IMG/VR virus record: IMGVR_UViG_3300024433_000013
Coordinates: 1 to 43,781 of that record
From: a virus
DNA: 43,781 nt
Direction: 5' to 3' (one strand)
In this document: positions 5,066 to 43,616 of the stretch, in pieces
Layout of the letters: each line of letters starts with the position of its first letter
Numbering within the stretch: the first letter of the stretch is position 1
Notes under the pieces: model-generated
Seen by the model: the letters and a program-made list of their open reading frames with translations, nothing else
What the model was told of the DNA's origin: nothing
The model's database searches: none
Translations under genes and position numbers: made by a program

Positions 5066-5468
5066 TAACTTTCTCCTCCGTATATTTAAAGAGTCGTTTT
5101 TCCCTGCGTCCACCCTTTGTAACAATGTTATCCCAATAAACAGCTTTGAGTTGCGGATACATCTGCCTGAATTGTTTCCTTAAAGGCAAGTAGTTCGCCT
5201 TCTTTCCCGTAAAGACTACATTTTCATCAATATAAAGATACTTGCCATCAGGTTTATGTTCGGGGATATTGTCCTTTAGATACCTTTCAAGTCCTTCTTT
5301 ATTAAAGATAAAATAAATAAGGTAGCCAACTACATCGCCGTTATTGCGTAGGTAAAGTAATCTGCCTTCCTCTACTGCCTTTTCGTAATAAGTTCTTAAT
5401 TCCTCTGGGTCTTTATATTTAAACTTGCTATTGGATACGGTGATTAAATCCTCAACTATAGTTGGCAT
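5058..5468 (-). CDS. GNAT-like acetyltransferase-type phage protein
   Basis: 136 residues. The strand pattern EEGRLLYLRNNGDVVGYLIYF followed by YLYIDENVVF and a helix resembles the core of small GNAT proteins often found among phage tail and ejection genes. No clear acetyl-CoA loop (Q/RxxGxG/A) is visible, so activity is uncertain. Its 3' end overlaps the start of the HNH gene by 8 nt, so the nuclease may have inserted at its stop codon. Confidence 0.5.
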   Translation of the reverse strand: MPTIVEDLITVSNSKFKYKDPEELRTYYEKAVEEGRLLYLRNNGDVVGYLIYFIFNKEGLERYLKDNIPEHKPDGKYLYIDENVVFTGKKANYLPLRKQFRQMYPQLKAVYWDNIVTKGGRREKRLFKYTEEKVSA

Positions 5469-5707
5469 TTTTTCTCAAACTTCCCGTCTTTGTATTCGTC
5501 GCCTATGGTAATACCTTTATCTTTATCTTCTTGTTTAAGTTCTTCTTTTTTAGCTTTAACACCGTGAAATACGGTTTCGTCATATTCGGCTACTCCGTCA
5601 TAGACTATTACATTTATAATTTCTCCAGTATCTTTATTGTAAACTGCGTAACTATCGGCAAATGCGATATATGGAAATAATAAGATTGCTATAAATAATA
5701 ATTTCAT
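5456..5707 (-). CDS. Secreted small protein resembling tail-assembly accessory proteins
   Basis: 83 residues with a Sec signal peptide (MKLLFIAILLFPYIAFA, cleavage before DSY). The mature part, beginning YAVYNKDTGEIINVIVYDG, resembles the small phage proteins encoded beside tail fibres (AIVNN..G.V.NVVVWDG type). Those are normally cytoplasmic, so the added signal peptide is odd. It follows the Gly-rich fibre gene and overlaps the next gene by 13 nt. Confidence 0.6.
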   Translation of the reverse strand: MKLLFIAILLFPYIAFADSYAVYNKDTGEIINVIVYDGVAEYDETVFHGVKAKKEELKQEDKDKGITIGDEYKDGKFEKKCQL

Positions 5708-5717
5708 CTTAAGCCTC

Positions 5718-6806
5718 CTAATAATAAACGATTACTAATCCAGCAGCACCTGAACCGCCTGTCGAAGCCCCTGCACTTTTTTCTCCACCGCCGCCACCGC
5801 CACCACCGGATACTTGCCCACTATTACCATTTCCCTCGAATCCACCGCCGCCACCGCCAGGACCGCCACAAGGGCTCCCTCCTCCGTTCCCCCCAATACT
5901 TCCGCCTGTATCGCCACCGCCGCCTTGCCCTTGGGCTCCAGTCAAGTTTACAGTTCCTGCTGAACCAACACCACCTGCTCCACCAATAATTCCAGAGGCA
6001 TTACCGCCGCCTGTTGCTTGTGGAGTAGTATCGCCAGCAAAACTACTTGTTCCGGTAGCACCACCAACCGTAACTGTAACATTTCCTGATACGGCAACCA
6101 GACCTTCAGAATAACCACCGCCACCACCGCCTGCGCCACTTGCCGCAGTAGAGCTTGCACTTCCAGCCCCGCCACCGCCCCAGACTTTAACATAAGCAAT
6201 AGAAACATTAGCAGGTTTTGTCCAAGTGCCAGATGATGTAAATACTTGGATATTCTTGGGAATAGCAGATGTAAGAGAACCGTGAGCATCAGCATCTAAA
6301 GTCGGATTAGGATGTGTCCCTGTTAGGTCGCCGCCTGCTGCATCGCCTTGTGCCATAATGGTTCCTGTTACCCCATCAAGACGGTCTATCTCATCATAAG
6401 TAACTCCCGTTACTCCGTCCAATATATTCAATTCAGCAGCAGAAGAAGTTAAGTTTGTATTGTTTATTTTAATTGTGCCGTTAAGATAAACTATGCCAAC
6501 AGAGGTCAAATCGGACGAAAATTCCGCTGCTCCTGCTACAGTTAAATCCCCTGAAATAGCAACATCATCTGTAATAGTAAGATCGCCGGATATGTCCAAG
6601 TCTTGTGTTTGACTAATGTATTTGCTATTGCTTCCGTCGTGGTCGTGGCCGCCAATAGTAGAAAATTTGGTCTCGAAATAGGAAAAATTAGTGTTTACCT
6701 CTATGGCAGAGGCAACTGTTCCTGTAGTAAAAGTAACAGGAACAGCAGCATAAATGTTTTGACATAAAAACAATAATCCAATAGTCAGAAAAAGTATTTT
6801 TTTCAT
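5718..6806 (-). CDS. Tail fibre / receptor-binding protein with signal peptide and poly-Gly tip
   Basis: 362 residues in this order: a signal peptide (ending NIYA), an HDHDGSNSKYI motif around residue 55, repeated DLTITDDVAISGDLTVAG beta segments, the common fibre motif AELNILDGVTG near residue 130, TWTKPANVSIAYVKVWGGGG near 195-215, and a glycine-rich C-terminal domain (about 205-362) ending LVIVYY. Gly-rich tips of this kind form polyglycine-helix receptor-binding ends in tailed phages. The signal peptide is exceptional for a virion protein. The start overlaps the stop of the upstream gene. Confidence 0.8.
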   Translation of the reverse strand: MKKILFLTIGLLFLCQNIYAAVPVTFTTGTVASAIEVNTNFSYFETKFSTIGGHDHDGSNSKYISQTQDLDISGDLTITDDVAISGDLTVAGAAEFSSDLTSVGIVYLNGTIKINNTNLTSSAAELNILDGVTGVTYDEIDRLDGVTGTIMAQGDAAGGDLTGTHPNPTLDADAHGSLTSAIPKNIQVFTSSGTWTKPANVSIAYVKVWGGGGAGSASSTAASGAGGGGGGYSEGLVAVSGNVTVTVGGATGTSSFAGDTTPQATGGGNASGIIGGAGGVGSAGTVNLTGAQGQGGGGDTGGSIGGNGGGSPCGGPGGGGGGFEGNGNSGQVSGGGGGGGGEKSAGASTGGSGAAGLVIVYY

Positions 6807-7165
6807 TCAATAATCCGTTCAATAGTTAAATTAAAGAACTCATCTTTATAGTTTTTTACATCTTTCGGCTTAATCTTTTTCTTTGATAATTCCCATTCCC
6901 AGCCTGCTCGGACGTGTTCCATAATTTTCTCAAAGTCAGCCTCGGTTACGATTGCACTTTTATCTACCGCTAAAGGCATATGAGAATTGTTAGATAATTC
7001 AAACCAGATAATTCTGTAATTAGGTAAAATTTTTCTGCTTCGGCTGATTATTCGTTTATTGGTTATCGGACATTTTCCAGGAATATAATTACCTGCCTCA
7101 AGGTGTATCGGAGAGCAAAAAGCCACGCCAGACAGTAGTGCCAGCACCAACACATATTTCAACAT
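6803..7165 (-). CDS. Secreted hypothetical protein in the tail cluster
   Basis: 120 residues with a signal peptide (MLKYVLVLALLSGVAFC, then SPIHLEAGN). The mature part has one further Cys and an acidic/basic helix near the end. A Shine-Dalgarno GAGGAA lies upstream of the ATG. The gene overlaps the preceding one by 68 nt and the fibre gene by 4 nt, so it is translated within the tail operon. No family recognised. Confidence 0.6.
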   Translation of the reverse strand: MLKYVLVLALLSGVAFCSPIHLEAGNYIPGKCPITNKRIISRSRKILPNYRIIWFELSNNSHMPLAVDKSAIVTEADFEKIMEHVRAGWEWELSKKKIKPKDVKNYKDEFFNLTIERIIE

Positions 7166-7340
7166 AATAATTTCCTCCGCTTTTCAATAAGACTGCTTCT
7201 CCTGTATATCTGCCAACTCTTGAACCGTCGGGATTTGTTTCTGTATATTCCAATCTTGAAACATAATCAAAAAGAGTTTTAACATCCCTATCTATTTCCC
7301 TATTCTCAATATATGTAAACGCTTTCTGTGGTTTTGCCAT
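7098..7340 (-). CDS. Small tail-operon protein, unknown
   Basis: 80 residues, mixed alpha/beta, no signal peptide. It lies directly after the gp10-like tail gene (2-nt gap) and overlaps the next gene by 68 nt. It is probably a small tail or fibre-associated protein by position; no motif is recognised. Confidence 0.55.
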   Translation of the reverse strand: MAKPQKAFTYIENREIDRDVKTLFDYVSRLEYTETNPDGSRVGRYTGEAVLLKSGGNYYVEICVGAGTTVWRGFLLSDTP

Positions 7341-7342
7341 TT

Positions 7343-8878
7343 TTACCTATAGACGACACTTCTGCCCGCACCTTTAAGTTGGGCAAGTAATGAAAACCCG
7401 TGAATAACTACATTTTCATCAGCATTGTCATTTGAAAAAAGTAGTTCCAAATGTTGTCCTTGTGCTTTCAGTCCTATGCGTGATTTAATAACGCTTGAAC
7501 CGCCCCACGTTGAAACTCCCCAAATCATACTTCCCCACAGAGAAGCATCTGTTGTTTGTCGCATACTAACAGTAGTCGTAGTATCTCCGGGAGCAAAATC
7601 CGTTTTATAAGAAATATTAAGGTCAAATGCCCCGATTTGTTTTATAAATAACCATAGAAAACGAAACCTTTTAAATGTTTCAGGGGCGTCCATATCAATA
7701 GGCGGCAATTTAACTACAAAATCTATCCCGCTACCGTTGTCGTTAGTTCCAGAGTCTTGTTGGTAGACAAGTCCGCCGTAATCTCCGGCATATAATCTGT
7801 CAATTTCCGTATCGGATGTTTCAAGGCCAAAAGCATTAAAGGCCATACCGGTATAGTTAGCAAAGGAAACATTATTCGTTCTTATTCCTGCTCCTTCGGA
7901 GGCAGTCGGTTCATAAGTTATACAAATAACCTCGTTGTTATTACCGCTTGAACCAGTAGATACTGCAAACCATATCTGGTTTTTTGCTTTGTAAAGTTCC
8001 GCTACGACTTGTGCTATCCTGGCATAATTAAGACCGGCAATAGTAGATTCAATTTTCTGGGAAAGGTAATGGACATTTATTCCATCATAAGAATAAATAC
8101 CCCTGTCCGATAAAAATATTAAATTATTATCTACTCGCACTATTGACTTATAAGCCACACAACCTACCGAAAGGCTTACCTCGTCTACCGCAAAAGTATC
8201 TCTATCATATCCCCTTAATTCATAAATCGCCCTACGGGTAAAGATATAAAGTTTTCCGAATAATACCGCAAGTCCCGTAATAGGATTAGTTAAATCCCCT
8301 ATATCAATATAATCTGTTCCCGACCAAGTAGTTTCATCACCGTCGTTTGAGAAGTAAAGTCGGTAGGGATAAGTGTCATTACCGGCCAAAAAGACAAAGT
8401 TCTGAAAGGTTGCGATAATTTCCGCTATGGGCGGTGAACCTCCCAGAATAGCCGCATTGTTGTCTATATCCCAACTCCATACTACCTCTATACCATTAGT
8501 TCCTATTGCTTTGTTATTAAAGGTAATAAATGACATAAAGTTCTCACCGGTAATTCCGGGAGTAAAAGTCAGGCCTCCGGGTATTTCTGTAGCTGAAGTA
8601 GCCCCCTGAACACTATAGTAAATTTTATCGCTTGCAGCAATGAACCTTTTTGTTCCGTCTCTTTTTACCAATTCGTATAATCCGGTGAGTATAGGAGTTC
8701 CAGTCAGGGCATTTGTAAATCTTTTTATATAACCAGCCCTTTTAGTCAGAGACCCGCTTTCAAAATAATGGACATTACGGGCTATCTGGAGTTCGGAGGT
8801 ATCAATAACAAGAGGTGAAGTTTTCTCCTGAAGGCCTTTGGCAGAAAAATAATAGCGTTTGGTCTGAAACGGTATCAA
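7343..8878 (-). CDS. P22 gp10-like tail hub / stabilization protein
   Basis: 511 residues of beta-rich sequence with repeated blade-like motifs such as RFIAASDKIYYS, YRLYFSNDGDETTWSG, KLYIFTRRAIYEL and NLIFLSDRGIYSYDG, as in beta-propeller tail proteins of short-tailed phages (P22 gp10 type). The N-terminus has the usual form in which RNVHYFESGSLTKRAGY introduces the first blade. It lies between the head adaptor genes and the fibres, as in P22-like tails. No signal peptide, unlike several neighbours. Confidence 0.7.
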   Translation of the reverse strand: MIPFQTKRYYFSAKGLQEKTSPLVIDTSELQIARNVHYFESGSLTKRAGYIKRFTNALTGTPILTGLYELVKRDGTKRFIAASDKIYYSVQGATSATEIPGGLTFTPGITGENFMSFITFNNKAIGTNGIEVVWSWDIDNNAAILGGSPPIAEIIATFQNFVFLAGNDTYPYRLYFSNDGDETTWSGTDYIDIGDLTNPITGLAVLFGKLYIFTRRAIYELRGYDRDTFAVDEVSLSVGCVAYKSIVRVDNNLIFLSDRGIYSYDGINVHYLSQKIESTIAGLNYARIAQVVAELYKAKNQIWFAVSTGSSGNNNEVICITYEPTASEGAGIRTNNVSFANYTGMAFNAFGLETSDTEIDRLYAGDYGGLVYQQDSGTNDNGSGIDFVVKLPPIDMDAPETFKRFRFLWLFIKQIGAFDLNISYKTDFAPGDTTTTVSMRQTTDASLWGSMIWGVSTWGGSSVIKSRIGLKAQGQHLELLFSNDNADENVVIHGFSLLAQLKGAGRSVVYR

Positions 8879-8888
8879 AACTGTCTCC

Positions 8889-8917
8889 TTGACTTCTAAT
8901 CAATTATATGCTATACT
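8889..8917 (+). promoter_or_regulatory. Sigma70-type promoter on the plus strand
   Basis: TTGACT (8889-8894), a 17-bp spacer, and TATACT (8912-8917) with an extended -10 TG. The start is predicted at about 8924, one base before the ATG at 8925. It fires away from the minus-strand tail operon. Confidence 0.75.
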
Positions 8918-8924
8918 TATATTG

Positions 8925-9152
8925 ATGAAAAAATTACTTTGGTTAATACTAATTTTGTCTGTTTGTGGAAATTTTAGTTTTGCTGATGAAACTCCATTAC
9001 CAAACACAAGCACTTTAGAATACATTAAGCCAGAAGATTTATGGTTATTTTATAAAGCTGAAAATTATGTTTTACCTTCCAGAGATTATTGGAACAAATT
9101 TCCAGAAAATCCAAAAATACCTTCGGACATTCTACATATTCAACAATTTTAA
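8925..9152 (+). CDS. Small secreted protein, plus-strand moron gene
   Basis: 75 residues with a strong signal peptide (MKKLLWLILILSVCGNFSFA, then DETPLPN). The mature region of about 55 residues is rich in Trp, Tyr and Pro, with no known family. ATG 8925 is chosen over an in-frame ATG at 8889 because the promoter lies between them. No Shine-Dalgarno site is present and the mRNA should be leaderless. The 3' end overlaps the convergent gene at 9132-9461 by 21 nt, mirroring the other plus-strand moron. A periplasmic or surface role in the lysogen or infected cell is inference. Confidence 0.7.
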   Translation: MKKLLWLILILSVCGNFSFADETPLPNTSTLEYIKPEDLWLFYKAENYVLPSRDYWNKFPENPKIPSDILHIQQF

Positions 9153-9920: not shown

Positions 9921-10391
9921 TTACCTTTCAAGGTTAGTAAATATACCTTCTATGTCAATGTGGGATGTTCCAGTTGCCCCGTGAGTTTTTATTCCTATTC
10001 TTAAGAAGTCCACATATTCGGTAACATCCACTATTTTATTTATAGCACTATCAGCAGAAGCAGAACCGAAATCTACGGTATCTAAAATAGCCCAGTTAGC
10101 CACTCCGCTTTGTAGATTAGAACGTAGATTTGTTTGGTCCTTGGAACGGCCTTCTATGCTTATTCTTATATCTTCTCCTACTGTAAGGCCTGTAATCTGG
10201 ATAGATTTTTGTTTATAAGTATTTACTGCTACTTGGTCTCCTGTAGAAGATGCACCATCATCATTATAAACAAAACTCCCCGAGGTCGGGTCATACCTGT
10301 TATAGAAATTATGCCTTTCTATAATCTGCCCTGCTTCCGCCACTTGAGCAATAAAAAAACTCAATACAAACAACATCAAAAACTTTTTCAT
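9921..10391 (-). CDS. Secreted beta-rich protein in the tail cluster
   Basis: About 156 residues with a signal peptide (MKKFLMLFVLSFFIAQVAEA). The mature region is beta-rich, with IQITGLTVGEDIRISIEG near the middle and HIDIEGIFTNLER at the end. ATG 10391 is chosen because AAGGAGGGAGAGG lies immediately upstream; the frame could extend 11 codons further. It lies directly after the adaptor gene. It could be a surface-decorating or tail protein that uses host export. Confidence 0.65.
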   Translation of the reverse strand: MKKFLMLFVLSFFIAQVAEAGQIIERHNFYNRYDPTSGSFVYNDDGASSTGDQVAVNTYKQKSIQITGLTVGEDIRISIEGRSKDQTNLRSNLQSGVANWAILDTVDFGSASADSAINKIVDVTEYVDFLRIGIKTHGATGTSHIDIEGIFTNLER

Positions 10392-11576: not shown

Positions 11577-12023
11577 TTATTTAGAGCAGGAAATTATCTT
11601 CCTCTCTTTTTCTTCGGGCGGGTCATTGATTATTCCTGACCTTAAGTTCTCCGCCGCCCTCTGCCAGAGACGCTTATTGTCCTTTATATCGTAACGCAAT
11701 TCGTGGTTCATTTTTTTGTCCTGTTTCTCTCGCCATAGTTTTTGTTTTTCATCAAGATGTTTCTCGTAATTGGCAACTGAACCATATCTTGCGATAATAT
11801 CCATCCTCCATAATTTTTTTATTACTCTGTTATCTAATGAACGGTAGCTTTCATCTTCATTACTCACCTCAAGTATCCAATGGCATCTGCCTTTTGAATG
11901 GCGATATATTTCGAACCTCTCTGTCTGACAATTAAACACTGCTTGCAATTTAGGGTCGAAATTGCGCAATCTGTTCTGAAACTCTTTAGATATTGTGGGG
12001 GCTAAAACTTTTGGAATTGACAT
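11577..12023 (-). CDS. Conserved-looking phage structural-region protein
   Basis: 148 residues. The start FDPKLQAVFNCQTERFEIYR followed by a charged helix resembles small soluble proteins seen in phage head-tail operons. It overlaps the end of the O-antigen ligase-like gene by 38 nt. Exact role unknown. Confidence 0.6.
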   Translation of the reverse strand: MSIPKVLAPTISKEFQNRLRNFDPKLQAVFNCQTERFEIYRHSKGRCHWILEVSNEDESYRSLDNRVIKKLWRMDIIARYGSVANYEKHLDEKQKLWREKQDKKMNHELRYDIKDNKRLWQRAAENLRSGIINDPPEEKERKIISCSK

Positions 12024-13206
12024 AAATGCTCTCCAAAACTGCTAAAAGTAAAACGGCATAAAAAGATATTTGAGCCAAGTGCATCGGAAACATAGATACT
12101 CCCGCTATCAAAAATGCTACCAGACACGTCGCTATACATATTTGTTTATTATTTTTTGCTTGTCTAAAGAACACCACAAATCTTGAAACAATCCAGCCGG
12201 AGAATAAAACAAATCCGATTATTCCAAGTTCTAAAATCATCTGCAAATAATCATTATGTGCTTCTTTCCACGGTGTTCCAGTTTTATCAATAATAAATAA
12301 ATGGGCAAAGAAGTTAATTCCTTTTCCCGTAAATGGTTTTACCTTTATACCATCCTGAAGTAACTTTTGCCAAATAGGAAATCTGTCAAAATTCGGCGCC
12401 TTAATATATACGAAAAATGTGCCGAGCATCACAACAACCAACAGGCAAACAAGGATATATTTCATTTTAAAACGGTATCTGTTCAGCAAATAAAATAATC
12501 CTCCGGAAGCAAAACATATCGCAGTAGTGGCGTTCTTGATAATAAACGCAGAACTTAAAATAACAAAGAACAGAATTGGTAGTTTTCTAATCTTAAAATA
12601 ATGCAATAGCAAAAATGAAGTGCTTGCAAAAAATATTCCCAAAACACAAGGGTTTCCGCTCCAACTTACTAAAGGAACTTTAGTCCCCAACGGCTGGCCT
12701 GAAGCAGTTATGGCATAAAATCCCGGGCCCCATTTCCACCACTCCAAAGGGTCGTAATTAAACATCTGTGTTATCAGCCAGCCAAATTGAAACAATACTG
12801 CTACACAGACAATGCGGAGAATTACATCAACCTTCAAAAAACCTTTTTCAAGCAAGAACTTCAGGCCGATATAAAGAACTAAAGCGGAAAAGACATTAGT
12901 TAATCCGATATAACTTTCTCTTGGCAGGAAGAAATTAACCCACCAGTTTATCACACACCAAATTACAAAATATCTTAACCACCGGCTCCTTTGCAAGAAA
13001 GAGCAAATAATTATCGCAAAAGAATAAAAACCTATTTCTCGTATCTTGCGTAAATCAATAATCCCTCCATCCACTTTCAGGGGATAATACAAAAGTGGAA
13101 CGGCAAATATAAGAAGATACAGGAAACATTTTTCAAGGAAAGCGGGAAACAGCCAAATTAAGGCTGTTTCCCATTTCCCTGTTTTCTTGGCTTTATTCAA
13201 GCACAT
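11986..13206 (-). CDS. O-antigen ligase / polymerase-family membrane protein
   Basis: 406 residues with about ten membrane segments. After residue 310 comes a large loop with AHNDYLQMILELGIIGF, the H-N-x-x-L hallmark of the WaaL/Wzy_C family that joins or polymerises lipid-linked O-polysaccharide in the inner membrane. Phage-borne members alter host O antigen and block superinfection. Here it sits inside the head-tail operon, overlapping the secreted capsid-adjacent gene upstream, so it would be expressed with the virion genes. Which reaction it performs cannot be told from sequence. Confidence 0.75.
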   Translation of the reverse strand: MCLNKAKKTGKWETALIWLFPAFLEKCFLYLLIFAVPLLYYPLKVDGGIIDLRKIREIGFYSFAIIICSFLQRSRWLRYFVIWCVINWWVNFFLPRESYIGLTNVFSALVLYIGLKFLLEKGFLKVDVILRIVCVAVLFQFGWLITQMFNYDPLEWWKWGPGFYAITASGQPLGTKVPLVSWSGNPCVLGIFFASTSFLLLHYFKIRKLPILFFVILSSAFIIKNATTAICFASGGLFYLLNRYRFKMKYILVCLLVVVMLGTFFVYIKAPNFDRFPIWQKLLQDGIKVKPFTGKGINFFAHLFIIDKTGTPWKEAHNDYLQMILELGIIGFVLFSGWIVSRFVVFFRQAKNNKQICIATCLVAFLIAGVSMFPMHLAQISFYAVLLLAVLESIYVNSKSFSPHNI

Positions 13207-13786
13207 AGATTACTACTAGATAATCAGTAGTAGCAGTTGGTGTAAAGCCTGTAGTTGTGTTAATGGTTACTCCTATTCTGTTGCCAGCAGTCAAAGCAGT
13301 AGCCTTACCAAAAGGATGTTCGGCATCGTGATAACCAACTCTATCCAAAGATACCCTAAATCCCCTTGCGACCACACTATCTGCCCTATCCTGCCTGATA
13401 TAGGCATATTGAGGGTCTGCTGCACCGTTTATACCTACTGCTGAACGTGCTGTAGTTGCTGTCGGTTCAATTACAGTTTGAATTCCTGTAACTGCACCAT
13501 TGATAGTTATATCAAATGTAGCTGCTCCTGCTGTGCAGGCTGCACTTCCAGCAACAGACATCCCTACTACTCTGCCGTCTCTTGGAACAACATAGTAGAA
13601 ATTATCATCCAAAGTTGATTCTACAGGAATTTCCCACGCTATTGTGTTTGCCGATATATTATCTGTTGCATAACTAAAGGCAACTTCATAGCCAAAGTTA
13701 TCCCTGTCTACATTATCCGTAACTATCAACCCAAATGCAGGAGTGCAAATTAAGAGAAAGAGGCAAGCAAGTAAAAGTTTCTTCAT
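13193..13786 (-). CDS. Secreted protein next to the major capsid gene
   Basis: 197 residues with a clear signal peptide (MKKLLLACLFLLICTPAFG). The mature part is beta-rich (VGMSVAGSAACTAGAATFDI, YLVVIYVLE), resembling a decoration or coat-like domain. GGAGG precedes the ATG. It lies immediately after the capsid gene, where phages often encode a head decoration protein, yet it is predicted to be exported. Either the hydrophobic N-terminus has another use, or the protein acts at the cell surface. Confidence 0.65.
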   Translation of the reverse strand: MKKLLLACLFLLICTPAFGLIVTDNVDRDNFGYEVAFSYATDNISANTIAWEIPVESTLDDNFYYVVPRDGRVVGMSVAGSAACTAGAATFDITINGAVTGIQTVIEPTATTARSAVGINGAADPQYAYIRQDRADSVVARGFRVSLDRVGYHDAEHPFGKATALTAGNRIGVTINTTTGFTPTATTDYLVVIYVLE

Positions 13787-13803: not shown

Positions 13804-14064
13804 TTAGTTAGACCCCGTGGGTTCGTTAAGTTCGGTTAACCTGAAATGTGCATTTGGTTTCAGGCTTCCCAAGTTGGCATATAACCTGTAATATGCCAAG
13901 AATATATCAGCAGTCCCGTTCCATTTGAGGATTGAGTTGTCATCATCCGCCAAATGGATACCACGGACTTCAAACCTCTCAAGGTATTTTGGGGTGATAC
14001 CGATAATTTCTGCTTTAGGACAGTCGACATCAATATCAGGATTGTTACTATTCTGTTTCCAGAA
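13804..14064 (-). CDS. Major capsid protein, C-terminal exon
   Basis: This frame continues the capsid protein after the intron. It reads from about FWKQNSNNPDIDVDCPKAEI through YLERFEVRGIHLADD and the end TELNEPTGSN, stop at 13804-13806. The DCP followed by a late beta region is typical of the last part of HK97-fold capsid proteins of this type, and exon 1 lacks it. The exact 3' splice point is unsure (14064 to about 14074). It is not preceded by a start codon with a ribosome binding site, which supports splicing. Confidence 0.7.
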   Translation of the reverse strand, partial: FWKQNSNNPDIDVDCPKAEIIGITPKYLERFEVRGIHLADDDNSILKWNGTADIFLAYYRLYANLGSLKPNAHFRLTELNEPTGSN

Positions 14065-14656
14065 CGGTCTGGATATTTCTACCAGACTCTACACGTCTCC
14101 GTGTAGCTCGGACTATACCTTCACCCTTTTCAGGGGACTCCCATCTAGTCTCTACACCTTCCCTATTTGGGCTTGGCTCGGAATTGCCTCTGCGATTTAG
14201 TTCTAATGCAGCGTGGTATAATAGATATTGAGATTGCAAAGTTTCTGGAGATATTCTTTTTGCGTAGCCACCTTTTGATTGGTAAAATTTTTTGTATCTA
14301 ATCACAATCTCGGCTACTTCTTTTTTTTGAATTAAATCATCCTTAATCATCTCCAAAATACTTACAATTTTATCTACACCGTAAAGAACCCATTGATAAA
14401 CAACTTTCTGTCCTTTAACTTGTTTTTTGGTATAAACTTTACCACAACCGCATAAATCTTTACATCGCTGACAAATATCAAAATTGGTATTAGAAACAAC
14501 TAATCTAACTTGAAAACGGTAATTGTTTCTATCATTAGCCCAAAGTTTGTGGATAGCGATATATCCTTCACCATCCACAATACCTGCTAACCAACCAATT
14601 TTTCTTTCTGTCATTTTGAGGTGTTCTCCGAATTTGAGAGTATTTTTCATAACCAT
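14048..14656 (-). CDS. LAGLIDADG homing endonuclease within the capsid-gene intron
   Basis: The motif IGWLAGIVDGEGYIAIHKLW is a single LAGLIDADG helix with the catalytic acidic residue, so it probably acts as a homodimer. The core runs to about residue 135. The remaining C-terminal residues are a translation of the intron's folded core and of the start of exon 2, because the frame stays open there. ATG 14614 (GGAG about 11 nt upstream) is the likelier start, giving a protein that begins MTERKIGWLAG. It would cut intronless capsid alleles to spread the intron. Confidence 0.85.
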   Translation of the reverse strand: MVMKNTLKFGEHLKMTERKIGWLAGIVDGEGYIAIHKLWANDRNNYRFQVRLVVSNTNFDICQRCKDLCGCGKVYTKKQVKGQKVVYQWVLYGVDKIVSILEMIKDDLIQKKEVAEIVIRYKKFYQSKGGYAKRISPETLQSQYLLYHAALELNRRGNSEPSPNREGVETRWESPEKGEGIVRATRRRVESGRNIQTVLETE

Positions 14657-14685
14657 TACTAGTTAAGGTGGCCTATTGATGGTTT
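14065..14685 (-). other. Group I intron interrupting the major capsid gene (boundaries approximate)
   Basis: The capsid frame stops shortly after SNKPSIGHLN, then resumes 600 nt later in a conserved-looking C-terminus. The 3' part carries group I core features: GACTAGATGGGAGTCCCC and AAGGTATAGTCC give a P7-like GACTA/TAGTC pairing at 14109-14155. A CTACACG-gaga-CGTGTAG hairpin (P9-like) and a GTCTGG/CCAGAC hairpin follow. A possible P1 pairs exon AACCAT with intron ATGGTT. An intron end at the G of ACCG (14065) fits phase 0; other ends within 25 nt cannot be excluded. Confidence 0.75.
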
Positions 14686-15654
14686 ATTTGACCACTTCAT
14701 CCCATTCCAAAAGATATACTGATAGCCCCTGTCCAGTTTGTCATCGAGGAAGCGTTTGTCCGGTGTAACAAGGTCAAGATATTTTCTGCGCTGGCCGTGC
14801 CTTGAGATGAGAAAATCTATCTTGCCATCACCGACAATCGAAACCTCATCCGCCGACCTCTGAAGCAGGTCATTGGTCAAGTTTACGCTGCCAGCAGCGA
14901 TGATATTTCCCCTCAAAATTGGATAGGTTGTCCTTGACTGGCCCTGGAATGTTGTAGCAACAGTTCCATCGTCAATAATAAAAGTTGTCCCTGCCAATTC
15001 CTTGCCACCAGTAGGAACACTATCTCTTACGCCTGCTCTTGTGAAATAATCATCATCAGTTACGCTAACAGCAGCAGAAAAGGTTATCTGGTTGTTAGCC
15101 CTATCAACAGAAGAAACGGTTATGTCGTCTTCGTCCTGCACTCCTGCCGATGAAAAGCTATCCAAGTGCATACCAGGCTTTACATTGATGACATCATCGC
15201 AAGTTATGGTCGCTGCTGTCTGTGTGCCATTAACAGTAGCAAGTTTACCGCTGCCATCGCTATAACATTGGCGGTTGAGGTCTTTAAGCATATTCTCTAA
15301 GGCTTCGTCTAACTGCCTGACTAAACCTGTAGCGAATGATGCCTCATCCCCCTCTGATACTGCACGGGCAAGGCCACTAATCTGGATTGTCCAAGTGTTA
15401 ATCTTGGGTATAATTGTAAACTGCACAACGGTTTCATTCCCGGCAGTCTTCAGGGCTTCGGACTCATTTATTGCCCCGCCGCCTTGCTGATTGCCCGCAA
15501 CTGAAACAGCAGGATAGAAACCAGTGCCTTTTGGTTTTTCGATAGACTTCGGAAGCATTTTATAGAGAAAGGCTGCTTTATTTTGCATTTGAACCAGCCT
15601 TTTTCCGTAAATACGCTTGAGGAGTCCACCTAAAGTCGTAGTAGTAACTCCCAT
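14659..15654 (-). CDS. Major capsid protein, N-terminal exon
   Basis: 331 codons. It starts MGVTTTTLGGLLKRIYGKRL and shows the features of a HK97-fold coat protein: an N-terminal arm, ALENMLKDLNRQCYSDGSGK (spine helix), an inserted beta domain (residues 140-220), and RRKYLDLVTPDKRFLDDKLD near the end. It follows directly on the acidic scaffold gene. The last codons before the in-frame TAG at 14659 are probably intron sequence. With exon 2 the protein is about 410-420 residues. Confidence 0.85.
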   Translation of the reverse strand: MGVTTTTLGGLLKRIYGKRLVQMQNKAAFLYKMLPKSIEKPKGTGFYPAVSVAGNQQGGGAINESEALKTAGNETVVQFTIIPKINTWTIQISGLARAVSEGDEASFATGLVRQLDEALENMLKDLNRQCYSDGSGKLATVNGTQTAATITCDDVINVKPGMHLDSFSSAGVQDEDDITVSSVDRANNQITFSAAVSVTDDDYFTRAGVRDSVPTGGKELAGTTFIIDDGTVATTFQGQSRTTYPILRGNIIAAGSVNLTNDLLQRSADEVSIVGDGKIDFLISRHGQRRKYLDLVTPDKRFLDDKLDRGYQYIFWNGMKWSNKPSIGHLN

Positions 15655-27163: not shown

Positions 27164-27913
27164 TTAATACTGAATTGCCAACAAAACCATTTTCTTTAAA
27201 ATAGTAAATTGCTCTTTAGTCATCTGGGTTTTTGCTGAACATTTTTCATATTGCAAAGTTTTGATTTCTTTATGTTGCCATTTTTCACAACCGCAAAAGA
27301 TATAATTCGGAGTTATGGAAATACAATATTGGAAAACTTGAATTGTTTTTAAAATGGTAATAATTTTGTCCCCAGAAACCCAAGCGTCCCCAGAAACCCG
27401 AGCGTTCCCAGAAACCTGGGCGTTCCCAGAAACCTGGGCGTTCCCAGAAACCCGAGCGTCCCCACAAACCCGAGCGTCCCCAGAAACCCAAGCGTCCCCA
27501 CAAACCCGAGCGTTCCCAGAAACCTGGGCGTTCCCAGAAACCTGGGCGTTCCCAGAAACCTGGGCGTTCCCAGAAACCTGGGCGTTCCCACAAACCCGAG
27601 CGTCCCCAGAAACCCAAGCGTTCCCAGAAACCCAAGCGTCCCCACAAACCCGAGCGTTCCCAGAAACCTGGGCGTTCCCAGAAACCTGGGCGTTCCCAGA
27701 AACCCGAGCGTCCCCACAAACCCGAGCGTTCCCAGAAACCTGGGCGTTCCCAGAAACCCGAGCAGTAACTTCTACCCTTGCAGTTTTTGCTACAAAGCCA
27801 CCAATACTGCCATCTGGATTTTTGTGTCTGGTATAAATTATCTTCTTATATTCTACTTGTCTTATTTTAATAGAAAGATTTTTAAATTCATCCCAATTAT
27901 TTATTTTCTTCAT
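27164..27913 (-). CDS. Hexapeptide-repeat (left-handed beta-helix) protein
   Basis: 249 residues. Residues about 55-187 are 22 nearly identical hexapeptides of the form A(R/Q/W)V(S/C)G(N/D), the pattern of left-handed parallel beta-helix proteins with three hexapeptides per coil, so about seven coils. The short N-terminal domain ends KTARVEVTARV and the last 60 residues are a separate Cys-containing cap. GGAG precedes the ATG. Many phage and bacterial genomes encode such proteins; the target is unknown. Its DNA is an 18-bp tandem array likely to vary in copy number. Confidence 0.75.
   Translation of the reverse strand: MKKINNWDEFKNLSIKIRQVEYKKIIYTRHKNPDGSIGGFVAKTARVEVTARVSGNAQVSGNARVCGDARVSGNAQVSGNAQVSGNARVCGDAWVSGNAWVSGDARVCGNAQVSGNAQVSGNAQVSGNAQVSGNARVCGDAWVSGDARVCGDARVSGNAQVSGNAQVSGNARVSGDAWVSGDKIITILKTIQVFQYCISITPNYIFCGCEKWQHKEIKTLQYEKCSAKTQMTKEQFTILKKMVLLAIQY
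27369..27767 (-). repeat. 18-bp tandem repeat array inside the beta-helix gene
   Basis: About 22 units of an 18-bp consensus (plus strand CCCAGAAACC-TGGGCGTT with variants at a few positions) encode the hexapeptides. Variation is limited to a handful of sites (R/Q/W, S/C, N/D codons), which indicates recent expansion or recombination between units. All frames stay open through it. Confidence 0.9.
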
Positions 27914-34115: not shown

Positions 34116-34268
34116 TCACCTTATCCTTTCTGTTTCTAACCTCGTTATCTCATCCGCACAAAACTTCATCCGCTTTACCATATCTATTATTGACATCGGC
34201 TCTCGGTCTTGTTCCTCGCAGGCTTCTACTGCAAGGTCATCAAGTCGGCGGTCGTTATCGAAAATCAT
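34116..34268 (-). CDS. Small acidic protein
   Basis: 50 residues from ATG 34268, with GGAGGAGG upstream and a TGATG overlap with the repeat-protein stop; a 73-residue reading from further up is rejected. MIFDNDRRLDDLAVEACEEQ onward. Unknown. Confidence 0.55.
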   Translation of the reverse strand: MIFDNDRRLDDLAVEACEEQDREPMSIIDMVKRMKFCADEITRLETERIR

Positions 34269-34606
34269 CAAACACCTCCTCCTATTAAATCCTCTATCTT
34301 TATGCCTTTTTTGCGTTCTTCCTCCGTTATCTCGCATAAATCTATGTCGCCCCAGATACCGCTGACGTCGCCCCTGATATTGCTGACGTCGCCTGTGATA
34401 CCGCTGACCTTGCCTGTGATATTGCTGACATCGCCTGTGATACCGTTGACGTCGCCCCAGATACCGCTGACGTCGCCCCTGATATTGCTGACGTCGCCTG
34501 TGATACCGCTGACGTTGCCTGTGATTTTATCGTGCACGCCAGTTATTTTCTTGCCATCCCTATAGTAATATAATTCTTTTTTTATTCTCTTTAGTTCACG
34601 TTTCAT
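34268..34606 (-). CDS. Heptapeptide-repeat GDVSGI protein
   Basis: 112 residues from ATG 34606 (GGAGGTG upstream). After a basic helix (MKRELKRIKKELYYYRDGKK) come about ten heptads of the form GDVSGIT, GDVSNIR, GDVSGIW. The regular Ile and Asp pattern suggests a beta-helix or solenoid. It ends with a charged tail. Similar repeats are widespread in phages, of unknown function. With the hexapeptide protein this is the second solenoid-like repeat protein in the genome. Confidence 0.7.
   Translation of the reverse strand: MKRELKRIKKELYYYRDGKKITGVHDKITGNVSGITGDVSNIRGDVSGIWGDVNGITGDVSNITGKVSGITGDVSNIRGDVSGIWGDIDLCEITEEERKKGIKIEDLIGGGV
34345..34525 (-). repeat. 21-bp tandem repeats in the GDVSGI gene
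   Basis: About eight to nine imperfect 21-bp units (plus strand GATACCGCTGACGTCGCC type) encode the heptapeptides. Units differ at a few positions only (CAG/CTG, ATA/ATT), indicating in-gene duplication. Confidence 0.8.
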
Positions 34607-34695
34607 ACTGCACCTCCGTTTTTGTCTGTGATAATCGGCGCAATCGCCATACTCCCGTAGAGAACAAATGTAATTATGGTAATCAATGCGGCCAT
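34603..34695 (-). CDS. Small membrane peptide
   Basis: 30 residues, MAALITIITFVLYGSMAIAP then a polar end. AAGGTGG upstream; start overlaps the previous stop (TAATG) and its stop overlaps the repeat-protein ATG. Translation is likely. Confidence 0.5.
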   Translation of the reverse strand: MAALITIITFVLYGSMAIAPIITDKNGGAV

Positions 34696-35084
34696 TATTT
34701 ACCACCTTCCGCTTTGATGATGGCTTGTTGTCTTTCTGTGCGATACCAAGACTTGTAAGTGTTATAGAATTGTTCCAAAGTTTCCGTTTTTAATTTAATA
34801 GGAGCAGTTCGTAACGCTTCATAACAATCAGGTGCGGAAGCGATAAGGCGGGCGTTACCGTCTGGATTTCCCTTGCGGATGTCTTTGCTAATATGACAAA
34901 CAATATCGAAAGCAATGCCTATCTTTGAATGTGGAATGGTAACAGCTGTTTGCCCAAGTGTTTCGGTTACTTCCCACGGCCCTGAAGTATATTGAGGCAC
35001 CAATGAGCAATTTCCACAAATGCCTTCAATTAAATCTGTCTCTATATTGCATACTTTACATATACCTGTATAAGTATCAGCCAT
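34695..35084 (-). CDS. Phage early-region protein with zinc ribbon
   Basis: 129 residues. Two Cys pairs near the N-terminus (CKVCNIE, CGNCS) suggest a zinc ribbon. GPWEVTE and GNPDGNARLIASAPDCYEAL follow the pattern of a common phage protein of unknown function (ARLIAAAPEL type). GGAGG lies just before the ATG. It is the gene after the structured element at 35107-35177. Confidence 0.6.
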   Translation of the reverse strand: MADTYTGICKVCNIETDLIEGICGNCSLVPQYTSGPWEVTETLGQTAVTIPHSKIGIAFDIVCHISKDIRKGNPDGNARLIASAPDCYEALRTAPIKLKTETLEQFYNTYKSWYRTERQQAIIKAEGGK

Positions 35085-35998: not shown

Positions 35999-36283
35999 TC
36001 AGAATTCTAAACCAGCATCTATCCTATGTATCCTTACATTATCATCTTTACCCAATTTCCCGGGAGAATACTTTATCCTCAAGTTCTTGGGAATAATGGG
36101 AATACTGCCAATTTTAAAAGTATCTTTGGTAGTATAGGCAACATAAGGATGAAGTTCTACATTATCCTTACGACCAGACATAATGTCACCAAATTCATCC
36201 AGGAGATTTGTTCCTTCGGCAAACACCGGCAAAGATATGGCCATTATCCCTGCCAAGCAAATTAGACTAATAAATCTTATCAT
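35999..36283 (-). CDS. Secreted small protein
   Basis: 94 residues with a signal peptide (ending SLPVFA). The mature part is beta-rich and Lys-containing (PYVAYTTKDTFKIG, PIIPKNLRIKYS) and ends in Phe (AGLEF), as outer-membrane strand proteins do. No clear family. It is in the early region, not the virion cluster, so it may modify the envelope. Confidence 0.6.
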   Translation of the reverse strand: MIRFISLICLAGIMAISLPVFAEGTNLLDEFGDIMSGRKDNVELHPYVAYTTKDTFKIGSIPIIPKNLRIKYSPGKLGKDDNVRIHRIDAGLEF

Positions 36284-37729: not shown

Positions 37730-38041
37730 TTATTCAAATTCAATTTTATCAATTACCTTCAACGCCTCAACCGGCGATTTGCTCTCTCCCTCTGCGCTGG
37801 GGCTCTTGGCCTTGATGTTGCCTTTGACTGTAACTACTTCCTTGCCTACCAAAACATCTTGGCCGTCAATTACATCGTATTTTTCGTAGATGAGTTTGCC
37901 TCCGCAACCGCAAAGTAACAAAGGAATCAGTATATACGCGAACTTAATCCGGACCTTAAACCCCTTCGTCTTCTTCCCCATTGGCGTTCTGGCTATTGGT
38001 TCAATGGATATCCGGCGCTTCTTCTTCCTGGGTTTCTTCAC
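37730..38041 (-). CDS. Small lipoprotein (possible outer-membrane spanin)
   Basis: 103 residues. A long basic N-terminus, then a hydrophobic stretch with a lipobox-like end, LIPLLLCGCGGKL, with the modified Cys at about residue 46. The mature part is short (about 57 residues). GTG 38041 overlaps the stop of the preceding gene. Such short lipoproteins can be o-spanins, but no partner adjoins it. Alternatively a signal peptide with an internal start at MGKKTKGF. Confidence 0.5.
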   Translation of the reverse strand: MKKPRKKKRRISIEPIARTPMGKKTKGFKVRIKFAYILIPLLLCGCGGKLIYEKYDVIDGQDVLVGKEVVTVKGNIKAKSPSAEGESKSPVEALKVIDKIEFE

Positions 38042-39478: not shown

Positions 39479-39479
39479 A

Positions 39480-39656: not shown

Positions 39657-39926
39657 TTATTTCCTCCCGTTCTTCTCAATCAACGATTTGAGGTCGTCAA
39701 ATCTCTCTGAAATATGCTCTTTAAGATTATCTATCTTCTCCTCAATATTCCCTGCTCGTTCGTTGCAGAATGACTTACTTTGCATATTCTTATAGACTTC
39801 ATTCTTTGAGATATGATTTCTGGTCAGCACTTTTACCGTCGTGCCAATAATTGCTATTATCCCTACTCCTATACCCCATAAAATATTGGGGTTAAAATTT
39901 ATCTTGGCGTCAAAAAGTGCAAACAT
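39657..39926 (-). CDS. Membrane-anchored coiled-coil protein (holin-associated candidate)
   Basis: 89 residues: one membrane helix (WGIGVGIIAIIGTTVKVL, residues 17-34) followed by a charged coiled coil (NIEEKIDNLKEHISERFDDL). Reverse order of XhlA-like hemolysin proteins, but the same ingredients. A lysis role is possible. Confidence 0.55.
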   Translation of the reverse strand: MFALFDAKINFNPNILWGIGVGIIAIIGTTVKVLTRNHISKNEVYKNMQSKSFCNERAGNIEEKIDNLKEHISERFDDLKSLIEKNGRK

Positions 39927-39939
39927 CCATCATCTCACT

Positions 39940-40335
39940 TTAAGGTAATTCCATTTCTCTAATCGCCTGCTTGACTTTTGCCTTTGATAGGCCGAGTTTC
40001 TGCATAAACACATTAAAGTCATTGCAGGTTTCATCTATTTCTAAAGTTTCCGGGTTGTCTATAATATTCATATATATAAACTGCCTCCCCGCCCTCTGAC
40101 TTACCACATTACCCCCTGCGTCTAACTCTTTTACAATAGTGCGGATTACGCAGGTTTCTGTCGTCGGAAGGATAACCATATTGTCAAAATCCAATGCCTT
40201 GCTTACTGCCACCTGCGATAAATCCTCGCTTTCAATATAATCTTGTGCAAAACAATATCCCCCAAAACTCAACACAAATATCACTACTACCATAAAACAT
40301 AAGTCCTTCAAAACCTCGTCTGCTTTCCTTACCAT
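39940..40335 (-). CDS. Secreted or membrane-anchored protein
   Basis: 131 residues. A hydrophobic stretch FMVVVIFVLSFGGYCFA (residues 14-30) followed by QDYIESED looks like a signal peptide. The mature part has two Cys about 50 residues apart. GAAAGGAG upstream. Lies after the LamG gene in the fibre cluster. Unknown function. Confidence 0.6.
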   Translation of the reverse strand: MVRKADEVLKDLCFMVVVIFVLSFGGYCFAQDYIESEDLSQVAVSKALDFDNMVILPTTETCVIRTIVKELDAGGNVVSQRAGRQFIYMNIIDNPETLEIDETCNDFNVFMQKLGLSKAKVKQAIREMELP

Positions 40336-40357
40336 TTTAATCTCCTTTCTTTAATAA

Positions 40358-41125
40358 CTAATCTGGATGCGATAAAACTTCCTCGGCCTTACCAATGCTT
40401 TCTCCACCCGCATCTGAACCTGTGCCGTCATTAGTTCCTGCTCTATCTTTGAAAGTCTGGGCATTTATACTTGTGCTATCGGCAAGGTCATCAAGAGGCC
40501 AATACCCTACTAAACTTGCAGGTTGTATTTGATAAGGCATACCTTTTATCTTTGAGTCTGTCAATAATGTTCTTTCTTGAGCAGTTAATTGAGCATTCCA
40601 CATAGCCACTTCAGTTATGTGCCCATCAAAAAACTCATAACCTGAATTATAACATCCAATGTTAGCTTCTGTATTATCTAAACAATCTGCTAAATTCGTA
40701 TTAGCGTATGAAGTAGATGCTTTCGATACATTATCTACCCAAATTTCAGAATCTAAACTGGTTCCATTTTGCACTAACTCTCCTAAAAAATGGTGCCATA
40801 CTCCTGTAGAAACTCCTGAAGCAACAAAATTATCTATATGAAAACTGCCATCTCCACAAAACCATTGAAAAATGTTTGATGCCCCGCCTCTTACATTTAA
40901 AGAATAATTAGCTATTTGTGAACCAGCAGGCCTTTTGGCAATTAGTGTTTGCCATTGGTCTCGCCAAGAACTCGCATACACCCACAAAGAAATAGTTGCA
41001 GCAGTAGAATCTACATCAACATCACCTAAATTGATAAAACCATCTGTCCCGTCAAAATCACAACCACAATAGGCGTTAAAAGAAAAAAGATAGATTAGAA
41101 AGGTTAGAAAAAGTTTTTTAATCAT
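40358..41125 (-). CDS. Secreted LamG / concanavalin-like protein, probable fibre or adhesin
   Basis: 255 residues: signal peptide (ending FNAYC), then a laminin-G-like jelly roll with CDFDGTDGFINLGDV, ATISLWVYASSWRD, WHHFLGELVQNGT, EIWVDNVSKASTS, TEVAMWNAQLTAQERTLL and LVGYWPLDD, in the order of LamG_3 domains. LamG domains bind glycans, so this could take part in adsorption. Its signal peptide again points to host export. It overlaps the neighbouring gene by 4 nt. Confidence 0.75.
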   Translation of the reverse strand: MIKKLFLTFLIYLFSFNAYCGCDFDGTDGFINLGDVDVDSTAATISLWVYASSWRDQWQTLIAKRPAGSQIANYSLNVRGGASNIFQWFCGDGSFHIDNFVASGVSTGVWHHFLGELVQNGTSLDSEIWVDNVSKASTSYANTNLADCLDNTEANIGCYNSGYEFFDGHITEVAMWNAQLTAQERTLLTDSKIKGMPYQIQPASLVGYWPLDDLADSTSINAQTFKDRAGTNDGTGSDAGGESIGKAEEVLSHPD

Positions 41126-41490
41126 AGTCCTAAATCGCTTTTTATCTGGTCTATTATTTCTTGCTTGGTTATAGGGTTGCTTGGTATTCTCGCATTTATC
41201 CTTTTTACTAAAGCGGTAAGCAAATCAAGATTACTAATCTCGTATTTATCTATTCTATCCAACAGCATCTGTTTTTCTGCGTCAACCTCCGCCTGCAAAA
41301 TAGCGTCTTGCTCGGCTTGGGACATTTCTACCACTTGCCCATTATCTACCTTGTGGAATTTAGTTATAAGGTCTAAAGTAGCCCTGTCTACTAAAAGAAT
41401 ATCAGGCAAGTCTTTTATATCTGCCCCGTCAACGGATTGATACTTTTTAGTGATTATTCCATTTCCATCAAATCTTATATAGTCAGCCAT
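41122..41490 (-). CDS. Fibre-associated protein
   Basis: 122 residues. VVEMSQAEQDAILQAEVDAE and the C-terminal SNPITKQEIIDQIKSDL form the helical layout seen in short proteins encoded beside phage tail fibres. No signal peptide. It sits between the large fibre and the LamG gene. Confidence 0.55.
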   Translation of the reverse strand: MADYIRFDGNGIITKKYQSVDGADIKDLPDILLVDRATLDLITKFHKVDNGQVVEMSQAEQDAILQAEVDAEKQMLLDRIDKYEISNLDLLTALVKRINARIPSNPITKQEIIDQIKSDLGL

Positions 41491-41493
41491 AAT

Positions 41494-43269
41494 TTACTCC
41501 CTTATTATCACCATTCTTAATTCTCTGTCCCCTGTTGCGTCATCGTTAGTAGCGTCGTCAGAGTCGGTAGATACCTTTATCCTTATCATATCTCCTGCCG
41601 CCAAACTATCATCGTTAGTTAAAGTTATCGTTTGCTTGTAGGGTCTGCCCGCGGTTGCCGCTACGGTAGTTACGCCTACATTCTCGGTATCATAACTATC
41701 AGTGTCCCAGTCAGCGTCATCCGTAGTAGCCGTAACTGCCATTACATAAACTTCAAACTGAACCTCATCTGCCTCACCAGAAGCCATTGAGAAATAAACA
41801 TCAGCATATAAAGTCCCACTACCATAATCATCGTCAAGTATAAACTCCCAAACAGCAGTTTCTTGGGTTGTATCATCAAAGAGCAGACGCCACCCGGAAT
41901 TGCCTGCGTCTATTACTGCGGGGTTGGAAGTAGGGAGTTTGGCGGATTGTGGCTTGAGCATCACACTTACTTCGGCTGCTCCACCTGCACCTGCATCTGC
42001 TTCCCAACCCAAAGTAGTGCCATCAATCTTTAGAATTTCATTATCAGCACCAACGGCGTTAGGAAAGGTATAGTTGGGAAGATAGAGGGCAGCCGTTGCA
42101 CCCGATACAGTCAAATCACTTGATACCGTTACATCCCCCACCACATCCAACACAGCCGAAGGCGTGTTCGTTCCTATCCCTATCCTATCATTACCCGCAT
42201 CCCCGTAGAATAAATTGGTTTCATTGTTGCCTGAAATCAAAAAGTCAACATCATTCTTCTGCTGATTAAAAATACCCTGTCCGGTAACTCCCAAGAATAT
42301 ATCCGCACCTGCCTGATTAACTGCTCCGATAGCAACACTGTCGGCGTCTTGTTCGTTAGGGTGTAAAATAGCCCCTGTGTCTGTCCATTCCCCGCCTGCT
42401 ACAGAGTCGTCAGTGTCCCAATAAACACCGCCCGCTGCGTCAGTATGTAAGACCTGTGCGGCAGTTCCGTCAGAGGCAGGCCAGTTGTAGGCTACGCTGT
42501 TAAAATGGGTTGCGCCACCTATAGTCAAATCACTCGTTATAATACAATCCCCTTCTACATCAAGTTTGGCGTCGGGGTAGCCGTCGCCGATGCCAATATT
42601 GCCGTTACTTAATATTGTCATTTTATTCGCATTACCAACTTGAAAATAAATCTCATGACCTGCTACTGTGTTGAAATAGGTATCTCCAGTTGTGGCAACA
42701 GCAAAACCAAGGTTGGCAGCTGTTGGAGTATCTGTATTCGCCCACAAACCCATTAAATCCCAGTCCCCTGCGGGAGATTTATATATACCAAACATTATTT
42801 TTCCATCTAATCCAGTTTCAGTCACTTTAGTTCCAATAAACCCTGAATTAGCGGTTAATCCGCTTATCTCCAATTGGCTTGCAGGTGCCGTCGTCCCAAT
42901 CCCCACTCTATTATTCGTGCTGTCTACATATAAAGTCCCTGTATCAACATCAAGGCTTCCGTCAATGTCGGCAAAGCCTTCAACATAGAGGTTAGAGGTT
43001 GAGCCAGAGAGGGTTAAATCGGATGAGAGAGTGGCTGTGCCGCTGATTATATCTCCAAATGTCCCTGTGCCTGTGGTAGTGAGGTTATCATCGTCAAAAG
43101 AGATTGTTCCAGTTGAATCGGTATAAGAGCCAGGATATATTGTTACATTTTCATCAATGGCATTTACAAAAATCATTTCACCATTTACATCACCACCGAT
43201 ACCACCATCTAATCCAAGATATGCAAATCCGTTTGCTACTGCATCGCTACCAACTACTAATCCGAGCAT
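41494..43269 (-). CDS. Long tail-fibre protein, main part (5' end broken by frameshift)
   Basis: 591 residues from an internal Met. It consists of repeated fibre motifs DLTLSGSTSNLYVEG, DSTNNRVGIGTTAPASQLEI, NDRIGIGTNTPSAVLDVVGD (GIGT..P repeats), and a C-terminal beta-sandwich-like domain (about 420-591). The same frame is open further upstream to about 43407 and continues the N-terminal piece at 43350-43616 if one base is added in a C8 tract. So the intact gene would be about 725 residues with a signal peptide. Confidence 0.8.
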   Translation of the reverse strand: MLGLVVGSDAVANGFAYLGLDGGIGGDVNGEMIFVNAIDENVTIYPGSYTDSTGTISFDDDNLTTTGTGTFGDIISGTATLSSDLTLSGSTSNLYVEGFADIDGSLDVDTGTLYVDSTNNRVGIGTTAPASQLEISGLTANSGFIGTKVTETGLDGKIMFGIYKSPAGDWDLMGLWANTDTPTAANLGFAVATTGDTYFNTVAGHEIYFQVGNANKMTILSNGNIGIGDGYPDAKLDVEGDCIITSDLTIGGATHFNSVAYNWPASDGTAAQVLHTDAAGGVYWDTDDSVAGGEWTDTGAILHPNEQDADSVAIGAVNQAGADIFLGVTGQGIFNQQKNDVDFLISGNNETNLFYGDAGNDRIGIGTNTPSAVLDVVGDVTVSSDLTVSGATAALYLPNYTFPNAVGADNEILKIDGTTLGWEADAGAGGAAEVSVMLKPQSAKLPTSNPAVIDAGNSGWRLLFDDTTQETAVWEFILDDDYGSGTLYADVYFSMASGEADEVQFEVYVMAVTATTDDADWDTDSYDTENVGVTTVAATAGRPYKQTITLTNDDSLAAGDMIRIKVSTDSDDATNDDATGDRELRMVIIRE

Positions 43270-43349
43270 ATATTCATCACTACCTGCAATAGGAGTTGAG
43301 ACACTGCTTCCACTTGGGATAATGATATTTCCAACTGTGGCCGTGCCGC

Positions 43350-43616
43350 CTACTGTGAGGTCGCCGGATATGCCGGTGTTGCCTGCGATGTAAAATTTAT
43401 CTCCTGCGGGGGGGGTTCTCCTATGCCTATGGGGCCGACTAAAAGAGTTGAACCAGAAACAGTAAGGTGAGATGAAATGGTAACATCTTCTTCAAAGGTT
43501 ACAGGATATGTGCCTACAGGGGGGAGTTCGTAACCGATTTCAGAACCAGAAAGATTTTGGGCAGAAGCAATAGAGGAAAATAAAAATAGACTTATCAATA
43601 AAGATAAATATTTCAT
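43350..43616 (-). CDS. Tail-fibre N-terminus with signal peptide (out of frame with its body)
   Basis: ATG 43616 overlaps the stop of the upstream gene (ATGA). The protein begins MKYLSLLISLFLFSSIASAQ (signal peptide), then EDVTISSHLTVSGSTLLVG in the style of the fibre shaft. After the C8 run it goes off frame and stops. Adding one C restores PAGDKFYIAGNTGISGDLTV and continues into the fibre body. Confidence 0.75.
   Translation of the reverse strand: MKYLSLLISLFLFSSIASAQNLSGSEIGYELPPVGTYPVTFEEDVTISSHLTVSGSTLLVGPIGIGEPPPQEINFTSQATPAYPATSQ
43408..43415 (-). repeat. Homopolymer C8 tract at the fibre frameshift
   Basis: Eight G on the plus strand (C8 on the coding strand) inside the fibre gene. 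Nine C would keep the frame open. It may be slippage-prone, variable in length in the population, or an assembly error. Confidence 0.7.

Follow-up and report, generated by a model that had tools for sequence, protein, structure and literature searches.

Predicted Sec signal peptides on tail fibres, tail spikes and lectins of a podovirus-like phage lineage

The window, that is, the whole stretch of 43,781 bases analysed here, is an IMG/VR virus record in which nearly all genes lie on the minus strand; the recognisable products include a terminase, a portal, a coat, a gp10-like head-closure protein and fibres. The first exon of the major coat gene (14659-15654, minus strand) was identified by its match to phrog_14242 (E 3.9e-33). 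The gene is interrupted by a group I intron (14048-14656; Intron_gpI E 2e-8, below gathering), inside which lies an endonuclease ORF of the LAGLIDADG type, and the coat gene of a relative, L003, whose product is 77-78% identical, is intact and uninterrupted. The gp10-like tail-stabilisation/head-closure protein (7343-8878, minus strand; phrog_3287, phrog_578 Hc3) is encoded upstream of a fibre module. When genomes were scanned with the portal profile for a host, the sole result was a distant relative in a genome of Paenibacillus.

Ten N-termini of this phage had been listed as Sec-like in a sequence-only reading, and they were scored with two purpose-built scorers, a rule and a weight matrix (PWM). 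The rule is based on a charged n-region, an uncharged 9-residue core with a mean Kyte-Doolittle value of at least 2, A, G, S or C at position -1, a small residue at -3, and no later transmembrane segment; the matrix was built from 28 E. coli signal peptides, 24 of which are recovered by the rule. The rule called 10 of 2170 internal-Met starts, and shuffled window N-termini gave a mean of 1.4 calls per genome with a maximum of 4 (200 trials). Among the control phages, P22 and CVT22 had two calls each, T7 and CRP-5 one each, lambda two plus the Bor lipoprotein, and N65 and DS1 none, spanins and Lom being among these calls; an oyster Zobellviridae genome (L014) had five, none of them in head-tail genes. 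Eight of the ten listed N-termini (5456, 6803, 8925, 9921, 13193, 35999, 40358 and 43350) passed the strict Sec/SPase-I rule, while 5718 was accepted by the matrix only and 39940 is weak. No lipoprotein was called at 37730 (37730-38041), where one had been proposed; the basic N-terminus is very long there, and the lipobox that follows it, LCGC, is imperfect. A Shine-Dalgarno sequence stands directly 5' of most peptide-bearing starts (AGGAGG at 5707, AAGGAGG at 10391, GAGGAGG at 13786), which makes a wrong choice of start there unlikely. The window set as a whole very probably consists of real signal peptides.

The listed proteins are a mixture of three things: fibre-module proteins (5718, 43350 together with 41494, 40358, 5456 and 6803), a coat-adjacent protein (13193), and an independent moron (8925). 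All peptide-bearing genes of the window described below lie on the minus strand except 8925-9152, and a slash marks the predicted cleavage site. The fibre module is opened, after the gp10-like gene, by a 120-aa protein (6803-7165; MLKYVLVLALLSGVAFC; rule passed, Shine-Dalgarno GGAGG). The tail fibre at 5718-6806 (MKKILFLTIGLLFLCQNIYA/AVPV; phrog_863 tail fibre, E 1.7e-23) is composed of a signal peptide, a fibre N-terminal domain and a Gly-rich C-terminal domain, in this order; its peptide scored 6.4 with the PWM and failed the strict rule. Its 83-aa module partner at 5456-5707 carries MKLLFIAILLFPYIAFA/DSYA (rule 5.2, PWM 8.9, Shine-Dalgarno AGGAGG).

The reading frame at 43350-43616 begins with MKYLSLLISLFLFSSIASA/QNLS (rule 4.4, PWM 12.3) and had been taken for a separate protein. 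It is in fact the start of a fibre: at a C8 run (43408-43415, minus strand) the frame changes and the protein runs on as ...PPAGDKFYIAGNTGISGDLTVGG... into the second tail-fibre body at 41494-43269 (minus strand), so that the second fibre also starts with a signal peptide. The run may reflect phase variation, slippage (possibly programmed) or an assembly error. The body contains VGIGTTAP-type repeats, matches phrog_9942 tail fibre, and gave tblastn matches to fibres of CRP-1, HTVC168P and S-PM2. Two of the listed proteins had been described as tail fibres; 5718 is one, but the product of 40358-41125 is a LamG/ConA-like lectin (PF13385, E 2.3e-14), whose peptide MIKKLFLTFLIYLFSFNAYC was accepted by the rule and not by the PWM (-1.4). 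The neighbouring 131-aa protein (39940-40335; MVRKADEVLKDLCFMVVVIFVLSFGGYCFA/QDYI) has a weak peptide (PWM 3.6 only), and the product of 41122-41490, also in the fibre module, has none.

One signal-peptide protein does follow the coat gene, as had been claimed. It is a 197-aa protein (13193-13786; MKKLLLACLFLLICTPAFG/LIVT; Shine-Dalgarno GAGGAGG) with a homologue in L003, and its gene overlaps by 14 bp, in the window and in L003, that of an O-antigen polymerase/ligase-like membrane protein (11986-13206, minus strand; PF04932 Wzy_C, E 1.6e-6, just under the gathering score); the gene order is the same in L003. The O-antigen polymerase-like gene stands between the coat and tail genes, a place that is occupied in ctKR88 (L008) by a glycosyltransferase and methyltransferase cluster. 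An AlphaFold2 model of 13193-13786 was too poor to use (pLDDT 30). Adjoining the gp4-like gene is a 156-aa beta-rich protein (9921-10391; MKKFLMLFVLSFFIAQVAEA/GQII; rule 4.6, PWM 7.5), with AAGGAGG at an internal ATG. Its AlphaFold2 model was also too poor (pLDDT 47), and Foldseek gave generic beta-sandwich matches only. A PDB profile match of A4 (oxidoreductase 3k1y, E 9e-4) came from a two-sequence profile and was judged spurious. Outside the structural region lies a 94-aa predicted exported protein (35999-36283; MIRFISLICLAGIMAISLPVFA/EGT; rule 4.5, PWM 9.6, Shine-Dalgarno AAGGAGGTG). Tblastn searches of 13193, 40358 and 5456 against isolate phages gave no useful match.

The 75-aa predicted exported protein at 8925-9152 (MKKLLWLILILSVCGNFSFA/DETP; PWM 9.8) is encoded on the plus strand within the minus-strand late region, and it has its own sigma70-type promoter (TTGACT-17 bp-TATACT) ending 7 nt before the ATG. 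It looks, from these features, like a moron-like gene with a leaderless start. Promoter-like TTGAC-N16/18-TATnnT sites were found 6-8 nt before start codons at window positions 97, 8925, 35346, 37339 and 37677, and the pattern with a start codon occurs seven times in the window, where 0.5 occurrences would be expected. These sites possibly mark leaderless starts. Not every one of them leads into a long ORF, and the site at 97 opens a 44-aa hydrophobic protein.

Whether the peptides are kept in relatives had been proposed as a check, and they are. In the coat-adjacent protein of L003, MKKLLLSLSFLLLVSSPVYA replaces MKKLLLACLFLLICTPAFG; the peptide is diverged and one residue longer, and the -3/-1 rule is still obeyed, so that the site AFG of the window is VYA in L003 and the cleavage rule is conserved but the sequence is not. 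A more distant relative, L005 (MW202554.1, ctLwi270, a podovirus from Manatee Spring; complete and circular), has a portal 29% and a coat 28% identical to those of the window. Like the window, it has signal peptides on a fibre, a LamG protein and a coat-region protein, and it differs in its fibre repertoire and in a spike module placed between portal and scaffold. The peptides of L005 are found on a collar-domain fibre after the gp10-like gene (13349; PF07484, phrog tail), where the matrix was passed and the rule, for want of a basic n-region, was not; on a GH28/pectin-lyase tail spike (24079; phrog_2234), whose GTG start codon overlaps the stop codon of the gene before it; on the LamG protein in its own fibre module; and on two fibre-module neighbours and one protein downstream of the coat. 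Its product of 12031-13095, a weak Peptidase_S74 match, has no peptide. Tail-fibre or tail-spike domains were thus found in 5718 and 41494 of the window and in 13349 and 24079 of L005. In other relatives a signal peptide was detected on a 1235-aa fibre downstream of gp10 (L037), on a fibre (L031), and on a small protein whose gene follows a conserved gene of the coat region (L024).

In a portal tree of 73 rows, several long branches of which were flagged by the tree itself, the six phages for which the case is convincing all belong to a single clade of 15 rows, the other nine rows being mostly short fragments that end before the fibre genes. Among genes downstream of the portal, 12 of 119 were called in this clade and 3 of 487 in the other 58 rows (Fisher p 5e-7, a post hoc comparison). 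The three calls in the large portal clade (L034, L040, L041) are non-canonical by eye and were considered spurious. The type of host envelope could be a confounder here, as the large portal clade includes phages of Actinobacteria.

The domain behind the 5718 peptide is also present in fibres of the Roseobacter phages CRP-1 and CRP-345, the genes of which likewise adjoin a tail structural gene. The mature N-terminal region of 5718 aligned with residues 17-59 of the CRP-1 fibre (score 68) and residues 17-47 of the CRP-345 fibre (score 56), neither score being reached in 1000 shuffles. In contrast to 5718, the domain begins near Met1 in these fibres, which have no signal peptide; none of the peptide-free comparison fibres scores as one. 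The L005 fibre likewise aligned with CRP-345 and with a peptide-free protein after gp10 in L043. The fibre N-termini of ctKR88 and L043 were not significantly like that of window 5718 (45 and 980 of 1000 shuffles). The N-terminus of a fibre is the usual point of its attachment to the tail. Since the domain that follows the 5718 peptide sits at the extreme N-terminus of peptide-free fibres, the peptide is an addition to what is otherwise an ordinary fibre.

The sequence evidence supports export well, export being the plainest way to read the architecture, and we infer from it that the proteins are actually exported and cleaved. Assembly of tailed phages is held to be cytoplasmic, and a tailed phage requires a receptor-binding protein. 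No clear peptide-free fibre or spike was recognised in the window or in L005, so at least some of the exported proteins should be receptor-binding and should meet the virion outside the cytoplasm, most simply at lysis. We therefore put forward, tentatively and at somewhat less than an even chance, that the peptides are genuine Sec/SPase-I signals in front of virion-type fibre, tail-spike and lectin proteins, and that the fibre-module proteins may be exported and join the virions at lysis. Under this proposal the peptides would have been added before ordinary fibre, tail-spike and lectin proteins in one podovirus-like lineage. Late in infection, fibre-module proteins would pass through Sec, lose their signal peptides, and fold in the periplasm or otherwise beyond the cytoplasmic membrane. 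Capsids and tail stubs would be assembled in the cytoplasm as usual, and the exported adhesins would be picked up through their exposed N-terminal attachment domains once lysis opens the cell. Any excess of adhesin would in addition coat host glycans and make the phages less prone to adsorb again to debris. The attachment to the virion after export is speculative, and we know of no tailed phage that attaches exported fibres. Against this reading, the peptide set is uneven: a 1021-aa fibre-like protein in L024/L113 has no signal peptide, nor have the fibres of ctKR88.

The predicted exported proteins may instead never enter the virion and act late in infection, in lytic conversion or superinfection exclusion, from the periplasm or the surface of the infected cell. 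There they would mask or alter receptors together with the Wzy-like protein, which would remodel surface polysaccharide. This is the main alternative, and we rate it only a little below the virion proposal. Receptor-blocking phage proteins that are exported into the host envelope are well established, as in T5 Llp and the Cor-type superinfection-exclusion lipoproteins (PMC9586334, PMC4936722); these are lipoproteins that jam an outer-membrane receptor rather than fibre or tail-spike proteins, and no lipobox was called among the fibre-module proteins of the window. Lambda Lom, which has a strong signal peptide and is encoded among the tail-fibre genes, between J and the side-tail-fibre gene, is a further likeness, but it is annotated as an outer-membrane protein and not a fibre. 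The moron-like gene at 8925-9152, with a promoter of its own, also suits such a role. This explanation fits best for 13193 alone, since the overlap couples that gene to the Wzy-like gene and is kept in L003. It is hard to extend to the collar-domain fibre and the GH28 tail spike, which are standard virion parts in the position of virion fibres, and it would leave the two best-covered genomes with no obvious receptor-binding protein.

The sequence-only reading had left the choice between export and a hydrophobic anchor or some other cleavage unmade, and conservation, clade distribution, Shine-Dalgarno placement and cleavage-site motifs together favour Sec signal peptides over uncleaved anchors. 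That the N-termini stay uncleaved and anchor the proteins in the membrane, or serve as hydrophobic plugs for holding fibres at the assembly site or docking them on the tail, is accordingly unlikely. Single hydrophobic segments and imperfect sites at 5718, 39940 and 40358 would suit it. In most of the N-termini, however, the n-region is short and basic, the core is as long as that of a signal peptide, and the site is A-x-A-like; the change from AFG to VYA in L003 obeys the cleavage rule without preserving the sequence, and other phages have a working fibre N-terminal domain that begins at Met1. Loss of N-terminal residues from a phage structural protein has a parallel in P22 gp7, which loses ~20 residues according to its record, although the processing is ascribed there to the host OpdA protease and not to Sec signal peptidase. 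Signal peptides or membrane anchors are reported as typical of the cellular adhesin targets in studies of diversity-generating retroelements (PMC8144416), and fibre-like host surface proteins might have been acquired together with their signal peptides, gaining or losing a phage function. Such a capture is quite improbable, as the matches of the mature domains are to phage fibres and phage tail families, third-position G+C does not clearly separate these genes from the rest, and the trait recurs within the same clade. Chance hydrophobic N-termini or wrong start codons could account for two or three weak calls, and the frame change at 43350 may be counted on that side. As an explanation of the set, chance or misplaced starts would be very hard to credit given eight calls against 1.4 in shuffles, the excess over control phages, the relatives, and the Shine-Dalgarno sequences before most starts.

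Exported phage proteins are already known (Llp, Cor, Lom), and Sec peptides on fibres or spikes appear to be the new part; a literature search of partial coverage, without most subscription journals, returned no paper that describes them on such tail proteins. The broader idea, that a lineage of tailed phages moved receptor-binding assembly out of the cytoplasm by Sec secretion, maturation in the envelope and attachment during lysis, may hold but is on the unlikely side. If receptor-binding proteins are secreted before use, views of host range, of folding (disulfides, periplasmic chaperones) and of superinfection exclusion in these phages would change. On a milder reading, a clade of phages exports fibre-like proteins to the host surface. 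A signal peptide followed by a fibre domain would then be a marker that can be searched for across viromes.

Single-protein scans of IMG/VR returned a single match, the contig IMGVR 3300009529_000028, which is nearly identical to the window across 1-31345. The end of this contig coincides exactly with window position 1, where an ORF with its start at 52 is cut off by the end of the sequence; position 1 is likely a shared assembly break and not a natural genome end, and the window may be incomplete at its ends. The protein of 27164-27913 consists of VSGNAQ/VSGDAR-type repeats, and the two contigs, which are out of register from 27561, probably differ in its repeat number. A second repeat protein (ITGDVSNIRGDVSGIWGDV) is encoded at 34268-34705.
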